A stretch of DNA of 64,000 bases from Bacteroidaceae bacterium (lineage in GTDB: Bacteria; Bacteroidota; Bacteroidia; Bacteroidales; Bacteroidaceae): NCBI GenBank assembly GCA_017535725.1, contig JAFXTO010000025.1, forward strand, positions 62,001 through 126,000, given 5' to 3'. A program made the translations under genes and the position numbers. This document shows, in pieces, positions 3,001-39,136 of this stretch; position 1 is the stretch's first letter; each line of letters starts with the position of its first letter. The notes beneath the pieces were generated by a model. That model worked only from the letters and a program-made list of their open reading frames with translations, did not search any database and was not told the origin of the DNA.

Positions 3001-5446
3001 CTTCGACTTGCAGATAGATAATGCCCTGTCGGGCTGCGTCCGTCCAGTTACCGAAGGAAACGATGGTATCTCCAGCTTCGGGATAGTCGCTGTTGAGCGC
3101 GCAGTCCGATGCGGAAATATCTACATACTGGTACTGCTTATCTCCCTTCGATGGGATAGCTCCACGGCCTGTATTGGTGACTCTTCGCCAGTAGTATTTG
3201 TTTGATGTGTTTTGGTGTACACCGCTGTCAATATTGTACGTCCGGCACATGGCTTGGTCGTTGACCCTCCACTTATTGATTGTCGCCGTTGTGCCATCGT
3301 CCGAGTAAAGATAACATCTGAATGTGGCGACGTTGGCAATGCCTCCGATGGTCTTATCCATGACATCGCCATGAGCATCGAGCCAGTCCACATAATAAAG
3401 CTTACTACCAGCAGACGAAAAGACATAGTTTCCACCCAAATAGGAGATTTCGCGGATTTCGAGAGAAGAGAAGAAAGCCTTGATTCGGACAAACAGCTCA
3501 TCGACCTCTAACCGCGTCTTGGTGTTGCCGTTCCCGTCGGCTTGGGATATAAGCTCAAAGCCCTTGCCGAAGACATTGCCCTCGTTACCTCCTACGCTGT
3601 TGTATTGCTCTGTCTGTATGCCCCTGCGCACACCGTTTGCGTCCTTGAACGTCCACAGGGAGCTTAAAATGTCGTTGCGGTTCTTGCGGGGGTATTGTCT
3701 GTCACTTCTTAGAGCTGAATAGACGTTACCCTCAGAGGGCGCGGTGGTGTCGTTTGAGGTGATGATATAGACACTACTTCCACCGCCTCCGATATTGGTG
3801 TAGCTGTTGTTTCTGTAAGCAATGGAATCCTTCGCTTCGTTAATGGCGGCTTCGGTGGCGCGCTTGCTGGAATATGTAGCGGACTCTCCCACGATGATTG
3901 TTGCTTCATCGTAGGGTATATCCAGCTTGTACTCATAGCCTATTACGCGGGAAACCCTGCTCCCTGTGCTGAAATAGACCGAGTTGACAAGCCGAATCCG
4001 CTGACCGAGCGGGAATGTTCCCACCTTGCTATAATTCGGGTCTTGCTGGCCATTGTTCAGTCCGTACATATAATCTGCCATCATCTTGCAGGGGTATGTG
4101 TGCGGGTCTGTCCTCAACTTGGCGGCGTATGTTTCTGCCTTGTCCTTTAGCTCTTCCTCTGCATTGTCGGTGAGGTCTTGCAAGGCTTCAATCTTGGTAG
4201 CATCCCATCCAATGAGGATGAACTTGTTTTGCAGTTCTGGGTACAGGGAATCATTCGGGAGGCTAAGGCCATAAGTGTCATTGATGACAATCTCAAAGAA
4301 CTGCGATTCGGGATTCACGACCTCCGTCTCTACGCCGTTCACGGTCTGCGTAATCTTCTCGGCCACTCCTTTCGGATTGAACACCACATTAAAGGTCATG
4401 CCGTTAAGTTTGCCGCTGGTAAATTCCACCTGTAAATCGGTCTTGGGAAGGATATAGTCCTTGCTGAAAGTGAAGCTGCTGGTCTTGAATCGGTATATCG
4501 TGACCCGCGTAAGCTCTTCGTCATTATTCTCTTCATCGGTGGCCTCTACCGTTGAGCCGTCATCCTTCATCCATTTCTCTACCTCTTCAATGGCGGTGAT
4601 GGCGCTTTCTGTACGCGGAAAGACCTCATCGAAGAAAACGACACCCTCAACTATCTCATCGTCGGTAAGGTTTTCGGCGATGTCAATATATGGTGTGTCC
4701 GATGGGAGCATGAGCCTCTTCTGAACTACACCGTTCAAAAGTACCTGTTCTTCATCTGCCCTGTACCCATTGGGAATGTTGCGCGTTGAGCCAAAGGCAT
4801 AAAAGCGGGTGATTGCGTCCTTACTTGCGTTCTGAGGTGTCATATCCTCCACGTTTACACCCACCTCGAAATCGATGGCTTCGCCGCTCTCTACCTTGCC
4901 GAAATGTATGACGGTATCAGTTATCCACCATTCGATGTTAAAGGCTTCTGCAATCTGCGTCAGCGCATCAAGGAGGTATTTGTTATCAAACTGGATGAAC
5001 ACCGTGCGCTGCGCCTCTTCCAATGACAGGCAAGCGTTATCCAAGGTGTAATGCCAGCCGTGATGCTCCAAGTTGCGCAAGAATACGGCCATGTGGTTGC
5101 CAAGGTTGTCAGTCAATGACCAGCTCGCTTCGTTGCGGTTGTTACTCGGCTCAAACTTGTATAGCTTGTTATTCCACTTGTAGTATGGAGCATTGAATTG
5201 AAGGTCATAGTCATAGCCGCCAGTGTCCTTGTTGTAGGTCGGCTGCTGTGGTTCCGTGATGTAGAACGTTCCCCAATCGGGGTGAGTGATATAGTCACCC
5301 AATCGGATGTTTATCTGCTCGCTGGATGAGAAGACAAGGCGTATATAGTCCTCCTTCATCAGCTCGAAGCGACGGATTGAACCCTCTTCGATGACCACGG
5401 CGTGCGAGATGCCGCCAATTCCTATGATGTTGATTGTAGCTGCCAT
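1..5446 (-). CDS. Phage tail / host-specificity protein, C-terminus off the left edge
   Basis: The minus-strand frame starting at ATG 5446 stays open to the left edge, giving at least 1,815 residues with no stop in view. The N-terminal 300 or so residues (MAATINIIGIGG...) follow a distal-tail-like gene, the place of a baseplate hub or tail-associated protein. From about residue 1050 a module of 135-149 residues recurs five times. Each holds a 'DGxLxPxEKL'-type motif, with the Asp near residues 1051, 1186, 1330, 1479 and 1621, followed by helical Tyr/Gln-rich sequence. Such modular tails usually form fibre-like, receptor-contacting parts. The start overlaps the upstream stop by one base (TAATG), so translation is coupled. 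Its role in host recognition is inferred from position and size. Confidence 0.85.
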   Translation of the reverse strand, partial: MAATINIIGIGGISHAVVIEEGSIRRFELMKEDYIRLVFSSSEQINIRLGDYITHPDWGTFYITEPQQPTYNKDTGGYDYDLQFNAPYYKWNNKLYKFEPSNNRNEASWSLTDNLGNHMAVFLRNLEHHGWHYTLDNACLSLEEAQRTVFIQFDNKYLLDALTQIAEAFNIEWWITDTVIHFGKVESGEAIDFEVGVNVEDMTPQNASKDAITRFYAFGSTRNIPNGYRADEEQVLLNGVVQKRLMLPSDTPYIDIAENLTDDEIVEGVVFFDEVFPRTESAITAIEEVEKWMKDDGSTVEATDEENNDEELTRVTIYRFKTSSFTFSKDYILPKTDLQVEFTSGKLNGMTFNVVFNPKGVAEKITQTVNGVETEVVNPESQFFEIVINDTYGLSLPNDSLYPELQNKFILIGWDATKIEALQDLTDNAEEELKDKAETYAAKLRTDPHTYPCKMMADYMYGLNNGQQDPNYSKVGTFPLGQRIRLVNSVYFSTGSRVSRVIGYEYKLDIPYDEATIIVGESATYSSKRATEAAINEAKDSIAYRNNSYTNIGGGGSSVYIITSNDTTAPSEGNVYSALRSDRQYPRKNRNDILSSLWTFKDANGVRRGIQTEQYNSVGGNEGNVFGKGFELISQADGNGNTKTRLEVDELFVRIKAFFSSLEIREISYLGGNYVFSSAGSKLYYVDWLDAHGDVMDKTIGGIANVATFRCYLYSDDGTTATINKWRVNDQAMCRTYNIDSGVHQNTSNKYYWRRVTNTGRGAIPSKGDKQYQYVDISASDCALNSDYPEAGDTIVSFGNWTDAARQGIIYLQVEGEGSPAIYEYANVGANGQHFVLPEPSLMLSPKKNVIYGEFHSVVDSEGGNTGNGDSIDDQLQALIDAINDIKNQADKKFELWFGAYEPRPTLAHPNQINYPASEWTTQALQILHAQDLFYDTLKAPATNRGRAWRWVVIVADYLYIRSLNTPSVTREELDSGKEALINYLGWSETIPEADEGAPNLYYIKNTGSGYSLPQLMESEESLPTFTAYWEDVTDQDTIDALEKIADVASDGKLTGGAEKTRVYIDWQKAVQEYLKYKEQAADYGITTELTEYVNAFKALGKLLNGGTDLIVSDVSTVIATPSWLADLQTDTEITSPTNYRGKWNDYYTALAALLKKITKCAKDLADAAQADATTALGKISDMANDGKLDPSEKLTVKREFIAAYHEMMDTDSDGYASGILDMAKDGNSWIITYSVWIEPYITAFRAIGTYLNGGTSWTEPTLANFGDSTLPAWIKDANMGNTQTIAGGTWRNLWAEFYATRTAVLTALTDKAQSTADNAHDRIDDIVSDGVISAGSEKSLLYIDWLKTIAEYKKYIEQASDYFGSTNTQDDALVAAYKKLAVMLNNGNPNDTTATISNDILNGVARPAWLTAANMNTDTVLADTPTANSSTYHSVWNAYQTALTALLEVITKKAKDLADAAQADATTALGKISDMANDGKLDPSEKLDLLSDFTAIVHEYYKIQSKCTTAGVSMATYKSAAEDLFTYLNGGTQWPNGTKTWPPSAISTYLNTIIPSWLTSSNISNTENINSETFRGLWGAFYAARVEVLTLLSEDAKNRADDAQEDATNALGQLSDFADDGVLTPFEKLNVLREWENITSEKEIILANAIDAHISTADYERAYNVLSWYLDDPTSESSNTNTFPDNRTPTALAASGNTTISSVVFKNDWQNFYYERAGILSLMSSSKVNFFVQSSVPTPPYKRGDLWMQTNNGNNMMVCVTGRSTGNGQLSDWADLSDITEKRDPRILLAALANMVYDNADCKNTIKNKGTNAY
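991..1084. repeat. 94-bp direct repeat, copy 1, inside tail gene
   Basis: This 94-bp stretch matches 1870-1963 with one mismatch (gggtcG versus gggtcA). It encodes the conserved part of two tail modules (motif DGKLDPSEKL). The other modules have diverged much more, so this pair reflects recent duplication or gene conversion. Confidence 0.9.
1870..1963. repeat. 94-bp direct repeat, copy 2, inside tail gene
   Basis: Second copy of the repeat at 991-1084, in the same orientation and reading frame, 879 bp further along the window. Confidence 0.9.
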
Positions 5447-8800: not shown

Positions 8801-10189
8801 TTTGTTGACATCTTCAAGCTCATTCTTTGCCAGTTTGATACTTTTACCGCTTTCTATTTCGGCAATCTTAGCTTTCCAATAAGCAATATCTTTAAGGGCT
8901 TCTATCTCCGTATTGTATTTTGTAAACAAGTCGGGATATTCTGCCTTTAGCTTTAACATTGCCTCTCGGCGTGTGTCTGTTGACAGGGATTCGTCGCCAG
9001 CTATCCTAATAAGCTCATCCAGCTTATTTCTATGCTCTTCCTCCTTAGCGATAGCCTCTTCCTTCTTGCGGTTGTATTCCTCGGTGGCCTCGTTCACTAA
9101 CTCCTGTTGAGTCTTCATCGTTACCATTACGGCAACCAGTCCGGCTACGGCAGTAGCGACAAGGACATAGGGATTGGCAAGCATGGTCGCATTAAGGGGC
9201 TTTTGGGCTTTCTCGCACAGCACAAGCCAACCATGATGGGCTATTTCGGCAGCCGTCAACGCTCCTGTAGCGGCTGTTTGAAGTGACTGCATGGCGGTGG
9301 CCGTCATAACAGCGGCTTTGTACACTCCATAAGTGGCGACAACACCAGCGATGACCTTGCCGACGCGCTCATAGTTCTCAACCAATGACGACACCACGGA
9401 GAGCGAGCCATTGATGATACCTTCATTCTGCTTGCCGATGTTGTTGAACATAACATCTATGGCATCCTCGATATTCGAGATTTGACCTGTGATGGTCTTC
9501 GATTGTTCCTCCATCAGACCACCGAACTTGCCACCCTCGGATGACATAGAGATAATGGCTTTCTTGAACTCTTCGGCTCCCACCTTGCCAGTGGAAACAA
9601 GCTCTTGCACCTTGTCCTTGGTCACGCCGAACTGCTTTGCCAGCTCTTCGGCCAAGGGAATACCACGACCCATGAACTGCCGCAAGTCCTGTGTGTACAT
9701 CCTTCCCTGCGTGAGAGTCGTACCATACAGATAGACCAAATCACCCAGCGGGAGGGATAGGCCAGCGGCGATGTCGCCAAGCCTCACAAGGGTCTCATTG
9801 ACCTCTTCGGCCTGTACGCCGTAGGCCAATAGCTGCTTTGCGCCGTCGGTGACACCTTTCAAGTCGAAGGGAGTGACAGATGCCGTCTTCGTGAGCTGCT
9901 GCATGAGGGTATTGGCTTTCTCGGCACTGCCAAGCATGGTGTTAAAGGCCACTTCAAGCTGCTGGAACTCTCCACGGATAGAGACAACCTTCTGAATGAA
10001 CTCCTTTGCGGAGAATCCAGCAAGGGAGGCCACAGCCGCCTTTTGTGTGCGTCCGAACATCTGTTCAATGCTCATGCCGCTCTGTTCTATCTGCTGCGCA
10101 GTCTGTCTAACGCCCTCCTGTGCGCCGTGCAGGGCGTTGAGGAAGTTCTTATTGTCACCAGTTATGGGGATATGTAGATTCTCTGCCAT
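5852..10189 (-). CDS. Tail tape measure protein
   Basis: At 1,445 residues this is the longest complete phage gene. The N-terminal 250 residues match the conserved tape-measure N-domain: a helical start (NFLNALHGAQEGVRQTAQQI), then FEAF-like 'FQQLEVAFNTMLGSAEKA', 'DLKGVTDGAKQLLAYG' and 'GIPLAEELAKQFGV'. About residues 280-350 contain Ala/Val-rich hydrophobic stretches usual in tape measures. Residues about 350-900 are long charged coiled coil (Glu/Lys/Arg/Gln). The protein sets tail length, fills the tail lumen and is thought to enter the host membrane during DNA ejection. Its ATG overlaps the upstream stop (TAATG). Length times 1.5 angstrom predicts a tail of roughly 200 nm. Confidence 0.95.
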   Translation of the reverse strand: MAENLHIPITGDNKNFLNALHGAQEGVRQTAQQIEQSGMSIEQMFGRTQKAAVASLAGFSAKEFIQKVVSIRGEFQQLEVAFNTMLGSAEKANTLMQQLTKTASVTPFDLKGVTDGAKQLLAYGVQAEEVNETLVRLGDIAAGLSLPLGDLVYLYGTTLTQGRMYTQDLRQFMGRGIPLAEELAKQFGVTKDKVQELVSTGKVGAEEFKKAIISMSSEGGKFGGLMEEQSKTITGQISNIEDAIDVMFNNIGKQNEGIINGSLSVVSSLVENYERVGKVIAGVVATYGVYKAAVMTATAMQSLQTAATGALTAAEIAHHGWLVLCEKAQKPLNATMLANPYVLVATAVAGLVAVMVTMKTQQELVNEATEEYNRKKEEAIAKEEEHRNKLDELIRIAGDESLSTDTRREAMLKLKAEYPDLFTKYNTEIEALKDIAYWKAKIAEIESGKSIKLAKNELEDVNKQIAELEERAKANYEAYQKLAPSERRYASPSLTREETAKLIQLKNRRQELTNEMRKEEVSNYFKDLTGVSNEELERQLNVRRSLLAKIRMAEQEGKKDVKGTVKTGGATGTFSKDELQDQVTSLEWEINRRAETRLTPSQQKAQLYKDLQAARKALADFDKSSDKYTKDEAEKARKKLQDAVDAAEKAYKAFGGSVSKGKTAEQQKQQREREARAQEQYEETLRKQKLAEKRAAEDMEIETRQAIIDAQEESTDKVIAQYQLDFDREKLAIERGYEDLKQKKIDDARTLFHADPANKGKTFDESSVNTDYTEEETNNYTQSLEANDKKLKRRLRELQEEDKRYQLEYLKEYGSYQEQKLAIAAEYDERIAKESNEWAKKSLEEQKKQALDEVEMMRVKFSIDWGAVFGNLASRTTKELEVIKRNLESLSRSGNFEDIEQIKELQSAISALGEELASRKGGFVALKDAYHELREATKDVITAEENLNRARAEGNAESIRTAERELLLARERKNTSESSLDAAKKATAKFIETITNIDFSSFSNVFLGIKDLAPTIDAAFKTNLSGIFQGMGDEMTNALAQLGDSIVSATKTIIDVFHVDDTRIQEQLTAYDMLKDSIDALSDKMENGSFIEALETYNTQLQLLEEQTGLASGTLSEAMALYQSKCIGWGNNHHSVNAYLDDRLTGKDFEAINSLLGTTDINSASQLWGLTPEQLNEIKTYLPNVWAQIKNAADDVKAHTDDSEDGEKAWDALMNYIGLAGQKDEIEKNISIRLTGLSLENLKSEFRSALDDIKHDADDFAEDISKTLSNALLNMRLAESGGANDRLETWYQKLRDLIADRANISEEEFANRLNVLRQEYADISQEGMEARDWANKMAGYSPEDAYEQNPSVGAWQSMGEDTGQELNGRFTALQIAGENISECATAMLATLNAISSVMGEDSTTLIEIRNLMITNNAFLEDILEVSRGIGKDLHKELKEIIKNTK

Positions 10190-10917
10190 TATTGTACAGG
10201 TTTAAGTCCTTTTGAAGCAAGGAAAGCGTTTAGCTGTCCTATTGAATTGGGGTCATTGCCGTCCAAGAGAGTGCCACCCAAGTCGGCGGGCAGGTCTTTA
10301 ATCTCAGAATCAGAGAGGTATATATTGACAACCTTGTCGGCAAGCATGAGTTTCAAATACGAATAGCTCATCTCGAAGCGTATCTCATCATCGGAATAGC
10401 CCATTTCTTTGAGCTGCTGGATGAATGTACCGAGTATGGTCTTGCCGCCGTATGCAAAGTTATTCGTGTCATGCTTGCGCTTAATATCCATCAGACGGGA
10501 GATATTGCTTCGCTCCTTGTCGAGTTCGAGGTGCTTGATATACTCTTCTGTTTTGTCGGACGTGAGCACGACGATAATCAGTGTGGCCAAATCGTCATCG
10601 GAAAGATTCTCTATAAAGTAATTCTTTCGGATGGTGATTGCCCGCTGGTCGAATAAGTCCTTCTTTGTGTTGGGAGCGGTATGTATCGCGAGGATGTGGC
10701 AGCAAATGTCCCTGCTTGCCCTCACTACTCTCATGGCTTCGAGATACGGATTAACCTTTAATATGTTCGTGTCAACACCCAGCCCGTCCACTTGTCGCTT
10801 CAAGAGAAACATCTTCGCGAGCGTGACGGGATATAGGCTGAAATGCTTTCTCCCTACGGAGAAATCGTATGGCCTCTCGATGATGACATCTACAAGGTTG
10901 TAATCTATATCGCTCAT
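10189..10917 (-). CDS. Putative tail assembly chaperone
   Basis: This 242-residue protein sits directly upstream of the tape measure gene, the fixed position of tail assembly chaperones (lambda gpG/gpGT role). The sequence is mainly helical and charged (SDDDLATLIIVVLTSDKTEE...). I chose ATG 10917 (MSDIDYN) rather than an in-frame start at 10965, because the longer version would run into the tRNA-like gene at 10928-10998. I saw no convincing slippery sequence, so the usual -1 frameshift product is not supported. Its stop overlaps the tape measure ATG. The assignment is by context. Confidence 0.6.
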   Translation of the reverse strand: MSDIDYNLVDVIIERPYDFSVGRKHFSLYPVTLAKMFLLKRQVDGLGVDTNILKVNPYLEAMRVVRASRDICCHILAIHTAPNTKKDLFDQRAITIRKNYFIENLSDDDLATLIIVVLTSDKTEEYIKHLELDKERSNISRLMDIKRKHDTNNFAYGGKTILGTFIQQLKEMGYSDDEIRFEMSYSYLKLMLADKVVNIYLSDSEIKDLPADLGGTLLDGNDPNSIGQLNAFLASKGLKPVQ

Positions 10918-10927
10918 AAAGTGCATT

Positions 10928-10998
10928 TGGCTCTCGGAGCGGGGGTCGAACCCGCGCACACGCATTGCTGCGTCGCTCTACCACTGAGCTATCCGAGA
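10928..10998 (-). ncRNA. tRNA-like RNA with GCAA tetraloop in place of the anticodon loop
   Basis: The minus strand folds as a tRNA: acceptor TCTCGGA/TCCGAGA, T8-A9, D stem GCTC/GAGC with loop AGTGGTA, T arm GCGGG-TTCGACC-CCCGC, G73 and an encoded CCA. The anticodon arm is wrong: stem ACGCA/TGCGT closes directly on GCAA, a GNRA tetraloop, so there is no 7-base loop, no U33 and no anticodon. Total length is 71 rather than about 74 bases. It fills most of the gap between the tail tube gene and the chaperone gene in the late operon, ending 11 bases before the next ATG. It could act as a processing signal, or be a decayed tRNA whose arm was repaired into a stable hairpin. Confidence 0.75.
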
Positions 10999-11024
10999 TA
11001 GGGGTTACTCCCCAATAACCATCA

Positions 11025-11450
11025 TCACGCGGACTTCGCTTGGAACGTGATGTCGGTGAGTGCGCCGTTTGCGCCAGTCACTCCCTTGGTCTTGTAGGTG
11101 TAAACAGCCACAAGGCCATCGGTAGAGTCGAACTTGACGGCTACGTGCTTCGAGCATCCGGCGGCCAAGGTCACGCCGATGGCTCCGACGGCTTCGGGTA
11201 CAACCGTGACGGCGTTGGACTCGCTTTCGGTGAAACCAATAGCGGCCTCTTCTGCGGAGGCGACACGGCGATTGAAGGTGAGGATGTACTTATCGGGAGC
11301 CTTCTTGCGGCCTTCGGCAGAACCGCCCTCGATGGTAGCCTCCTGTTCTTGACCTTCTTCGACTGAGAGCTGGCAGGAGTTCTCGATGATGTCGGTGAAT
11401 CCTGCGGCGGAGCATTTGCCCCATCCTAAAACTTTTGTAGGTTCTGACAT
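11025..11450 (-). CDS. Major tail (tube) protein
   Basis: A 141-residue beta-rich, slightly acidic protein (MSEPTKVLGWGKCSAAGF..., FNRRVASAEEAAIGF..., GVTGANGALTDITFQAKSA) that sits between the tail completion gene and the chaperone/tape measure pair, the standard slot for the tail tube subunit. Length and composition suit a gpV-like tube protein. It has no signal peptide. As a high-copy structural protein it should be abundant in virions. The function is from position plus fold impression. Confidence 0.7.
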   Translation of the reverse strand: MSEPTKVLGWGKCSAAGFTDIIENSCQLSVEEGQEQEATIEGGSAEGRKKAPDKYILTFNRRVASAEEAAIGFTESESNAVTVVPEAVGAIGVTLAAGCSKHVAVKFDSTDGLVAVYTYKTKGVTGANGALTDITFQAKSA

Positions 11451-11454
11451 GGTG

Positions 11455-11859
11455 CTATTCGTTATTAAATTGATACTTTAGTTTGTTGCTGATGACGTGT
11501 TCGTCCTTCCCATTAACAGCGAGTATGCGCTGGCTGTCAAGGAAGAAGCGAAACCCGTCACCAAACCTCGATTGTAGAACCCTTGCACAGATTTCCGCGA
11601 GTGTTGAAGTACGGATGACATCTTCCACTGATTCCCCGCCATTGTTGATGTTGGGGACATAGACATTGACATTGACGAAGCAGCTTTGTATCTGGCCGTT
11701 CTGATTGGCCAGCACAGAGATGATGCAGTCTTCGGCATGGGAGCCTTTCTTTCGGGGGATATAGCGCACTTCACCATTGATGGCCGTCTTTAGTTCGGAG
11801 GCCACAACGATGCCGTACACATCCATCCTTACATCTGCGTCACTTTTCATACTTGTCAA
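11455..11859 (-). CDS. Tail terminator / completion protein
   Basis: This 134-residue protein lies between the gp10-like connector and the tail tube gene, where tail terminator proteins are normally encoded. It holds a 'VVASELKTAINGEVRYIPRK' start and 'CFVNVNVYVPNINNGG' strand region, resembling the small alpha/beta fold of such proteins. ATG 11859 gives a 20-base overlap with the upstream gene; an internal ATG at 11850 is also possible. It presumably caps the tail tube at the head-proximal end. Confidence 0.55.
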   Translation of the reverse strand: MTSMKSDADVRMDVYGIVVASELKTAINGEVRYIPRKKGSHAEDCIISVLANQNGQIQSCFVNVNVYVPNINNGGESVEDVIRTSTLAEICARVLQSRFGDGFRFFLDSQRILAVNGKDEHVISNKLKYQFNNE

Positions 11860-12316
11860 GAACTTGTCTTACCCTGCTTCGCAGGAGTTGTGGGATATTC
11901 TTCTCTATGTATAGTTGACCCTGTGCAAGTACCGCCTTTCCTTCGACCGCCTCGACGTAAACGGCGTATTCCTCGCCAGCTACGACAATGAGGGCAAAGT
12001 CTCGGTCTGCGAAATCGTTAGCCAACTTCTCTGCGAGATTCCGTCCTTTGGTTGCACCGTCAGCACCATTTCGGATGACTTCAAAACTCGATTGTTTGAC
12101 TATGCGACCCTTACGGGTGACTACATAACCGACGGAGGAACGCAAGGCTCCCGTCTGGTCTTCCCAGTTGCTCAGACTGCCATCCCGTATGCCCTTGACA
12201 ACGGACTCGCCCACCTCGGCATAAGCCTCGGCCACCGCGTTCTCGATGTCATCGTTGGCATGGTTCATCAACGTTAGGACGCGGGAAATGGATTGTCTGC
12301 TCATGGTTATACCCAT
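11840..12316 (-). CDS. HK97 gp10-like head-tail connector protein
   Basis: A 158-residue protein with the features of the gp10-like neck family: a basic helical N-terminus (ISRVLTLMNHANDDIENAVAEA), 'DQTGALRSSVGYVV', which resembles the family's 'TGxLRxSI' segment, and a later 'GEEYAVYVEAVEGKAVL'. This fold joins the completed head to the tail. MSRQSISR at 12304 is an alternative start. It overlaps the gene before it by 10 bases and the next by 20, consistent with one operon. Confidence 0.65.
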   Translation of the reverse strand: MGITMSRQSISRVLTLMNHANDDIENAVAEAYAEVGESVVKGIRDGSLSNWEDQTGALRSSVGYVVTRKGRIVKQSSFEVIRNGADGATKGRNLAEKLANDFADRDFALIVVAGEEYAVYVEAVEGKAVLAQGQLYIEKNIPQLLRSRVRQVLDKYEK

Positions 12317-35458: not shown

Positions 35459-35538
35459 TGCAGAAGGATGGAATCGAACCACCACAAAAGGCCAAGACTT
35501 TATACCGCGCATCGTTCCATCTATACGCTTTCTTCTGC
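35459..35538 (-). ncRNA. tRNA-like RNA with irregular anticodon region
   Basis: The minus strand has acceptor GCAGAAG/CTTCTGC, A73, and T arm GGTGG-TTCGATT-CCATC, all canonical, over 80 bases. A D-like stem (GCGT/ATGC) holds GG in its loop. The anticodon arm is poor: AAAG/CTTT around TCTTGGC, which would give UUG (Gln) but with C at position 33 instead of U. CCA is not encoded. It may be a degenerate or specialised phage tRNA. Confidence 0.6.
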
Positions 35539-39059: not shown

Positions 39060-39062
39060 TTG

Positions 39063-39136
39063 TACGCCCTACGGGAATCGAACCCGTGACCCACGGATTA
39101 AAAATCCGTTGCTCTGGCCGTCTGAGCTAAGGGCGT
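39063..39136 (-). tRNA. tRNA-Lys(UUU)
   Basis: A complete cloverleaf on the minus strand: acceptor ACGCCCT/AGGGCGT, D arm GCTC/GAGC, anticodon arm ACGGA-TTTTTAA-TCCGT with anticodon TTT, 5-base variable region, T arm ACGGG-TTCGATT-CCCGT, A73. CCA is not encoded. It is phage-carried; it may help translate AAA-rich early genes or replace a host tRNA attacked by defences. Confidence 0.9.

Follow-up and report, generated by a model that had tools for sequence, protein, structure and literature searches.

In animal mitochondria, and in the tufB tRNA-mRNA co-transcripts of Escherichia coli, tRNAs positioned between genes release the mRNAs. RNase P requires little beyond the acceptor and T stems of a substrate, and the tRNA genes that phages carry are commonly interpreted as helping with decoding or as sites of attachment. 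In plant mitochondria, tRNA-like sequences that border genes, the t-elements, provide RNase Z and/or RNase P signals for the ends of mRNAs and rRNAs, and stem-loops with anticodon loops of the wrong size also occur, as outlined in PMC8662596. RNase P additionally cuts substrates that are not tRNAs, including bacterial mRNAs, the phage M3 RNA and the C4 antisense RNA, according to the outline in PMC11143913.

The tRNA-like element described here lies between tail genes in a 64,000-nucleotide stretch of a Bacteroidaceae contig (the window). It and its relatives resemble the plant t-elements, as these are outlined, in being tRNA-like, in bordering a gene and in having a deformed anticodon loop, but they belong to a bacterial virus, retain a full cloverleaf and mostly lie behind a hairpin, and their cleavage is presumed. 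Whereas the M3, C4 and mRNA substrates are, in the outline cited, individual RNAs, the phage elements constitute a family conserved in its site within a structural operon, from which anticodons have been lost. The tRNAs punctuating animal mitochondrial and tufB transcripts decode; by contrast, the window element and 18 of 33 elements from IMG/VR lack a seven-base anticodon loop. A tRNA body, with a pseudoknot replacing the anticodon arm in some relatives, recalls tmRNA, although the phage elements are far shorter; tmRNA itself can be ruled out, as ARAGORN, which searches for it too, reported none in the window or the scanned loci. A literature search of titles and the openings of abstracts returned no description of such an element, which does not prove its absence from print.

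The main features of the locus are listed in Table 1. ARAGORN calls a tRNA at 10928-10998 on the reverse strand as tRNA-???, a proper anticodon being absent, and the Rfam tRNA model (RF00005) matches the element above its cut-off of 29 bits, with 53.4 bits and E = 1.2e-8. The acceptor stem (UCUCGGA/UCCGAGA) is paired at 7 of 7 positions, and the D arm (GCUC-AGUGGUA-GAGC), anticodon arm (ACGCA-GCAA-UGCGU) and T arm (GCGGG-UUCGACC-CCCGC) are followed by G-CCA. These two programs and a script parse thus confirm the original prediction of a full cloverleaf with CCA in which the anticodon stem is closed by GCAA. Folded alone, the element reaches -30.5 kcal/mol (z -2.3), with 5 of 200 shuffles equally stable; in its minimum free energy structure the acceptor, D and anticodon arms form as read, and the T arm has extra pairs within the T loop. 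The cloverleaf is also recovered in the fold of a 161-nt stretch of the predicted transcript, the whole of which is less unusual (z -1.5, 14 of 200 shuffles equal).

Table 1. Positions of the element, its hairpin and selected genes in the window
Feature	Position	Strand	Basis
Short hairpin (GGGG-AGUAA-CCCC) with its end 2 nt upstream of the element; corresponds to the upstream hairpin of relatives	11001-11013	-	Folding
tRNA-like element: full cloverleaf, G73 and CCA, without anticodon	10928-10998	-	ARAGORN, Rfam, folding, script parse
Anticodon-arm position: 5-bp stem ACGCA/UGCGU with GCAA tetraloop (10965-10968)	10960-10973	-	Sequence reading, folding; same stem in host tRNA-Thr(CGU)
Tail-tube-like gene, 141 aa, phrog_17745	11025-11450	-	PHROGs; role predicted from gene order
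Gene between tail tube and tape measure, 245 aa, phrog_11996, in tail-assembly-chaperone position	10192-10926	-	PHROGs; gene order
Tape measure protein gene, 1445 aa	5852-10189	-	phrog_9959 (E 1.7e-210); Pfam TMP_3 (E 1.9e-30)
Ordinary tRNA-Lys(UUU)	39062-39136	-	ARAGORN; Rfam 71.7 bits

The element therefore has the acceptor, D and T arms of a decoding tRNA and lacks a seven-base loop with U33 and a readable anticodon. Its D arm, anticodon stem and T arm are similar to those of the host tRNA-Thr(CGU), while the acceptor stem is different, and the window copy is likely to derive in part from that gene. As the host loop, UUCGUAA, is converted to GCAA by a three-base deletion and one substitution, the tetraloop needs no special origin. 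This likeness was revealed by a DNA match to MT837721.1, itself rejected as a relative since it contains two ordinary tRNAs beside what is, by eye, an apparent Clp ATPase gene.

A gap of 98 nt, in which the element sits, separates the 141-aa gene from the 245-aa gene, which has in-frame AUGs at 10926 and 10917 and is followed by the tape measure gene; upstream, in the same direction, are connector-like, major head, portal and terminase genes. PHROGs annotates the families of both flanking genes as "unknown function", searches of Pfam and NCBIfam found nothing above cut-off for either protein, and a PDB search gave no name either. Gene order suggests that the 141-aa protein is likely to be the tail tube and the 245-aa protein the tail assembly chaperone. 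A pattern scan of window positions 9800-12000 for promoters and terminators found nothing at the element junction; the region as a whole contains four promoter-like sites against 1.9 in shuffles, and two terminator-like sites against 2.0. An attachment site or integration target is ruled out by the location inside the tail operon, the tRNA-Lys gene at 39062-39136 being separate. Elsewhere in the window, at 35459-35538 on the reverse strand, a second, weaker tRNA-like fold with 7 of 7 acceptor pairs and a T arm (Rfam 23.7 bits, cut-off 29) is flanked by NinB-like and NinG-like genes, and is perhaps another punctuation site.

Among sequenced genomes these phages are rare, occurring in 2 of 101 from the genus and 3 of 399 from the family, the window's own genome counted in each; an order-level search of 393 genomes gave five further weak partial matches, which were left unused, and one scan of genome contigs gave four loci. 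In the relative from the same genus (G014), whose version of the 245-aa protein is 59% identical, the equivalent position is occupied by a tRNA-like element, called as tRNA-??? by ARAGORN and with a loop read as eight bases. GenBank phages include a gene related to the downstream gene in a single record, MT835773.1. In IMG/VR, a scan using just the protein from the window yielded no relative, and alignment-based scans with the downstream protein found 19, then 53 loci, several being near-copies. By finder and by eye, 33 of these 53 loci have a complete element at the junction (seven are near-copies), two have an incomplete one (L033, truncated where the contig stops, and the degenerate L052) and 17 none, while the upstream sequence is missing from one (L083). 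The upstream gene at the 17 loci without an element is assumed to encode the tail tube, and looks different in L069 and L081. Five more complete elements, every one with an altered loop, come from outside the 53-locus scan (the window, L024, L004, L096 and L103). A further set of 19 loci contributed eight new ones: L096 and L103 are complete, L092, L094, L097 and L104 are cut by the contig end, and L101 and L108 are without the stretch. At a single locus, L053, an extra gene related to Pfam crAss001_48 (3590-3973) stands between the element and the gene in chaperone position; the element still adjoins the tail-tube gene, an arrangement that associates it with the 3' end of the tail-tube mRNA. 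The junction of L063 contains a short acceptor-like hairpin (CAGGUU...AACCUG) that looks like what is left of an element after deletion of the middle.

A cloverleaf finder demanding at least 6 of 7 acceptor pairs and at least 4 of 5 T pairs detected elements at 21 of 39 junctions with scores of at least 17.3, against 0 of 312 shuffled junctions and 0 of 215 control tiles; lowering the score to at least 16.3 gave 24 of 39, 5 of 312 and 3 of 215, respectively. Applied to both strands of 44 loci (362,317 bases, comprising flanks of a few kb only), a stricter finder returned 24 matches, all at the junction, and missed five curated elements (L037, L044, L049, L056 and L073); its additional matches in the window were the ordinary tRNA-Lys and the second candidate. 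A chance fold is rejected by these controls together with the covariation in the altered elements. Low finder scores (13.3-16.0) in L052, L062, L067, L072, L074 and L076-L081 were dismissed by eye. L024, L044, L053, L073, L096 and L103 were parsed by eye; ARAGORN calls five of these and Rfam calls L053, and the L044 element has two acceptor mismatches. At the gathering cut-off, Rfam places 12 of 18 loci above; those below are L035, L056, L065 and L073, along with L052, where the element is degenerate, and L072, where it is absent.

Of the 33 complete elements, 15 have a seven-base anticodon loop and 18 an altered one. Altered loops comprise GNRA tetraloops, further short loops, long loops containing CCUCCU, which resembles the 16S rRNA tail, and probable pseudoknots. 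Three of the five four-base loops are GNRA: the window and L038 have GCAA, and L061 has GAAA on a U-G closing pair, the three members being in different parts of the tree, with the L038-L033 branch weakly supported. The other two, when the longest pairing is taken, are CAAG (L103) and AUCC (L065). An eight-base loop, CUCAUACA, is found by script in L041 and L043, and by eye in L024 and L096, where the script prefers another pairing. In L031, L045 and L048 the loop spans 13 to 24 bases and includes CCUCCU, and the middle region is 48 to 58 bases long in L035, L036, L070, L004, L068 and L053. Elements with seven-base loops vary in identity (initiator-like Met, Gly, Ala and Lys), and some may be working tRNAs; in L034 and L039 the seven-base loop, read by eye, is without U33. 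Two elements of this kind come from named strains, Prevotella sp. KH2C16 (L025) and Prevotella vespertina A2879 (L027). Elements resembling initiator tRNAs, with a 1-72 mismatch and a CAU anticodon, stand at the junctions of L042, L046, L051, L050, L054, L058 and L059; for the first three the likeness to the host initiator tRNA, the mismatch included, is full-length.

This variety of loops is accompanied by a conserved body. In 18 distinct altered elements, 98.6% of the 288 cells formed by 16 acceptor, D and T stem pairs are paired, against 69.0% after shuffling, and double changes are present at 15 of the 16 pairs; the finder thresholds partly build in the former figure, the latter less so. 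The original prediction had suggested comparing the arm in related phages for covariation; for the body, the covariation score is 0.860 compared with 0.240 when shuffled and 0.129-0.191 when slid. The set omits the D loop and the middle region, and rows were dropped for L036 and L004 (whose bodies duplicate those of L035 and L070), for the near-copies L032, L047 and L071, and for the incomplete L033 and L052. Bases of the elbow and the 3' end are similarly maintained in the 18 elements: U8 in 17, A14 in 17, the D-loop GG in 18, the T-loop UUCRA in 17 and C74 in 18. By eye, C74 follows the discriminator in the listed host tRNAs too, implying that the elements keep the 3' rule of host tRNAs.

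Five sister contrasts with altered loops on both sides (window-L103, L045-L048, L061-L096, L031-L035 and L068-L070) contain, in 80 pairs, 12 two-sided changes, 3 one-sided changes that still pair and 1 broken pair, counts that assume, as we infer, that the ancestor of each pair already had an altered loop. Nine contrasts were computed; the four uncounted are two without change, one repeating a counted change, and L041-L043, whose sole difference is at a position unpaired in both. On a protein tree of 51 rows, the label 'altered' requires at least 10 changes, at least 6 of them forced by well-supported branches, where gain or loss of the whole element is included as a change. The pairing and the double changes in the altered elements imply, on the evidence of the sequences, that the tRNA body is under selection although decoding has been lost.

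Structure is also evident immediately upstream. Across 33 elements examined, the 50 nt before the element have a mean z of -2.4 relative to mononucleotide shuffles, with z at or below -2.0 in 23; the last paired base is 0-10 nt from the element in all 33, a distance given without control. The window hairpin is weak by itself (z -0.3), and no terminator is called there. Terminator-like hairpins followed by a run of T are present at 7 of 16 junctions lacking the element, compared with 4 of 26 junctions that have it and 11 of 280 control tiles; at the other 9 of the 16, the terminator-like hairpin is absent as well.

The placement at 33 of 53 loci, the covarying body, the predicted hairpin, and the terminator-like hairpins at some element-free junctions together give most support to the element being a processing mark. 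It is probably a non-decoding tRNA that marks the late tail message for processing, a phage t-element: it is tRNA-like and at a gene boundary, its loop is deformed in the window and 18 of 33 relatives, and its fold is kept by selection. RNase P and RNase Z would read the conserved parts of the element rather than the anticodon arm, and the altered elements retain an acceptor/T stack, UUCRA (17 of 18) and C74 (18 of 18), which are features of RNase P substrates. Transcription would proceed from the tail tube through the hairpin and the tRNA-like element to the gene in chaperone position and the tape measure. RNase P, recognising the elbow and the acceptor/T stack, would cut at the 5' end of the element, such that the tail-tube mRNA would end right behind the hairpin and be shielded from 3' exonucleases, while RNase Z or other 3' tRNA processing would free the downstream message near its start codon. 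In L034, L045, L049 and L050 the 3' end of the element overlaps the start codon (CUAUGG), and an RNase Z cut would there produce an almost leaderless message. The tail-tube protein, needed in many copies, would in this way gain its own stable mRNA, apart from genes whose products are needed in few copies. The anticodon, unneeded and a liability at the RNA levels of late genes, would have been lost or capped many times. The predicted hairpin is only 0-1 nt away in eight of 33 elements, which could hinder RNase P. RNase P/Z processing of the late message, one of the possibilities raised by the original prediction, is accordingly the best supported, and rests on the conserved place and the compensatory body changes seen in sequence; we infer that the junction is transcribed, that these enzymes cleave it and that the mRNA becomes more stable, along with the roles of the flanking proteins.

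Given that RNase P needs mainly the acceptor and T stems, the intact D arm and the often stable arm replacements exceed the requirements of punctuation. A stable RNA that would act in trans once released, as a decoy occupying tRNA nucleases or the CCA enzyme or by pairing through its exposed loop, for instance by copies of the 16S tail, is a possible but doubtful alternative. Several arm replacements look structured, among them the GNRA loops and the putative pseudoknots of two distant lineages. L035/L036 and L070/L004, which are distant from each other on the tree, can both be fitted by an H-type pseudoknot, and two compensatory pair changes are found in its second stem; the fit concerns four sequences of two types, with two of five shuffle measures not above chance. 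However, given their sequence similarity, these two types may be one invention spread by recombination. By eye only, a pseudoknot is also possible in L068 and L053.

The 16S-tail sequence, CCUCCUUUC, is concentrated at the junctions, with 4 occurrences in 7,000 nt against 1 in 325,630 nt elsewhere (same strand, 41 loci); on the same basis CCUCCU has 7 against 28, and the control string CCUUCC 0 against 44. It falls within the loop in L045 and L048, which are sisters on the tree, but in L037 and L073 the 16S-like stretch is upstream, outside the element, and the window junction has none: the single copy in the window, at 972-980 on the reverse strand, is off the junction, and 0.64 copies per window are expected by chance. 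In L103, which is not part of the junction count, a copy of the 16S tail lies upstream of the element. Searching genomes for the 16S end gave one match, in a relative from the order and reading GGCTGGAATACCTCCTTTC, and none in the window's own genome or the other 19 searched.

The anticodon loop is what many tRNA nucleases read, and is the part of these elements that is not kept; the decoy role offered by the original prediction thus finds no specific support. A defence enzyme that cuts tRNA tails has been published, as outlined in PMC12851939, and on that outline a decoy need not carry an anticodon, such that one for enzymes acting on the acceptor end is possible. Against trans action more generally, no loop feature is common to all elements, most altered members have neither a 16S-like stretch nor a supported pseudoknot, and an RNA acting in trans has no need of a fixed gene junction or of alternation with terminators. 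Nevertheless, the stable arm replacements and the 16S-tail copies leave room for a trans role in some lineages. A combined scheme, in which captured host tRNAs (initiator Met, Thr and others), stripped of decoding, would punctuate the message and at the same time provide a stable scaffold for an interchangeable payload replacing the anticodon arm, is unlikely. The payload of one lineage would copy the 16S tail (CCUCCUUUC), and could pair with the rpsU Shine-Dalgarno or fill the ribosomal tail pocket, shifting the choice of mRNAs that host ribosomes initiate on late in infection; Bacteroidia ribosomes hide the 16S tail and the Shine-Dalgarno of rpsU is exceptionally strong, as outlined in PMC9976891.

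It is quite unlikely that the element is an insulator in cis, blocking translation coupling or exonucleases as any compact RNA would, with the tRNA shape merely handy. The terminator-like hairpins found alone at 7 of 16 element-free junctions are what such a role would lead one to expect, but the bases of the L-shape elbow (U8, A14, GG and UUCRA) and C74, kept in 17-18 of 18 altered elements, are not something an insulator would need. Decay of a formerly useful phage tRNA gene, or sequence error, is very improbable: relatives with a seven-base loop, which the original prediction had regarded as a sign of either, do occupy 15 of the 33 complete loci, and the window loop can be explained by a few changes to host tRNA-Thr(CGU), but simple decay is not what they demonstrate, as the sister contrasts are compensatory, bodies covary in separately altered lineages, altered loops come from contigs of many different samples, and tRNAs of differing identity stand at one place.

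At this one gene junction, a tRNA fold is under selection while decoding has repeatedly been given up. If the cleavage predicted for the processing mark is true, a structural operon of a virus would here be punctuated by tRNAs. This could then explain some of the 'undetermined' tRNA calls in Bacteroidales phages, and the elements would supply RNase P substrates in which nature has replaced the anticodon arm in a series of ways.
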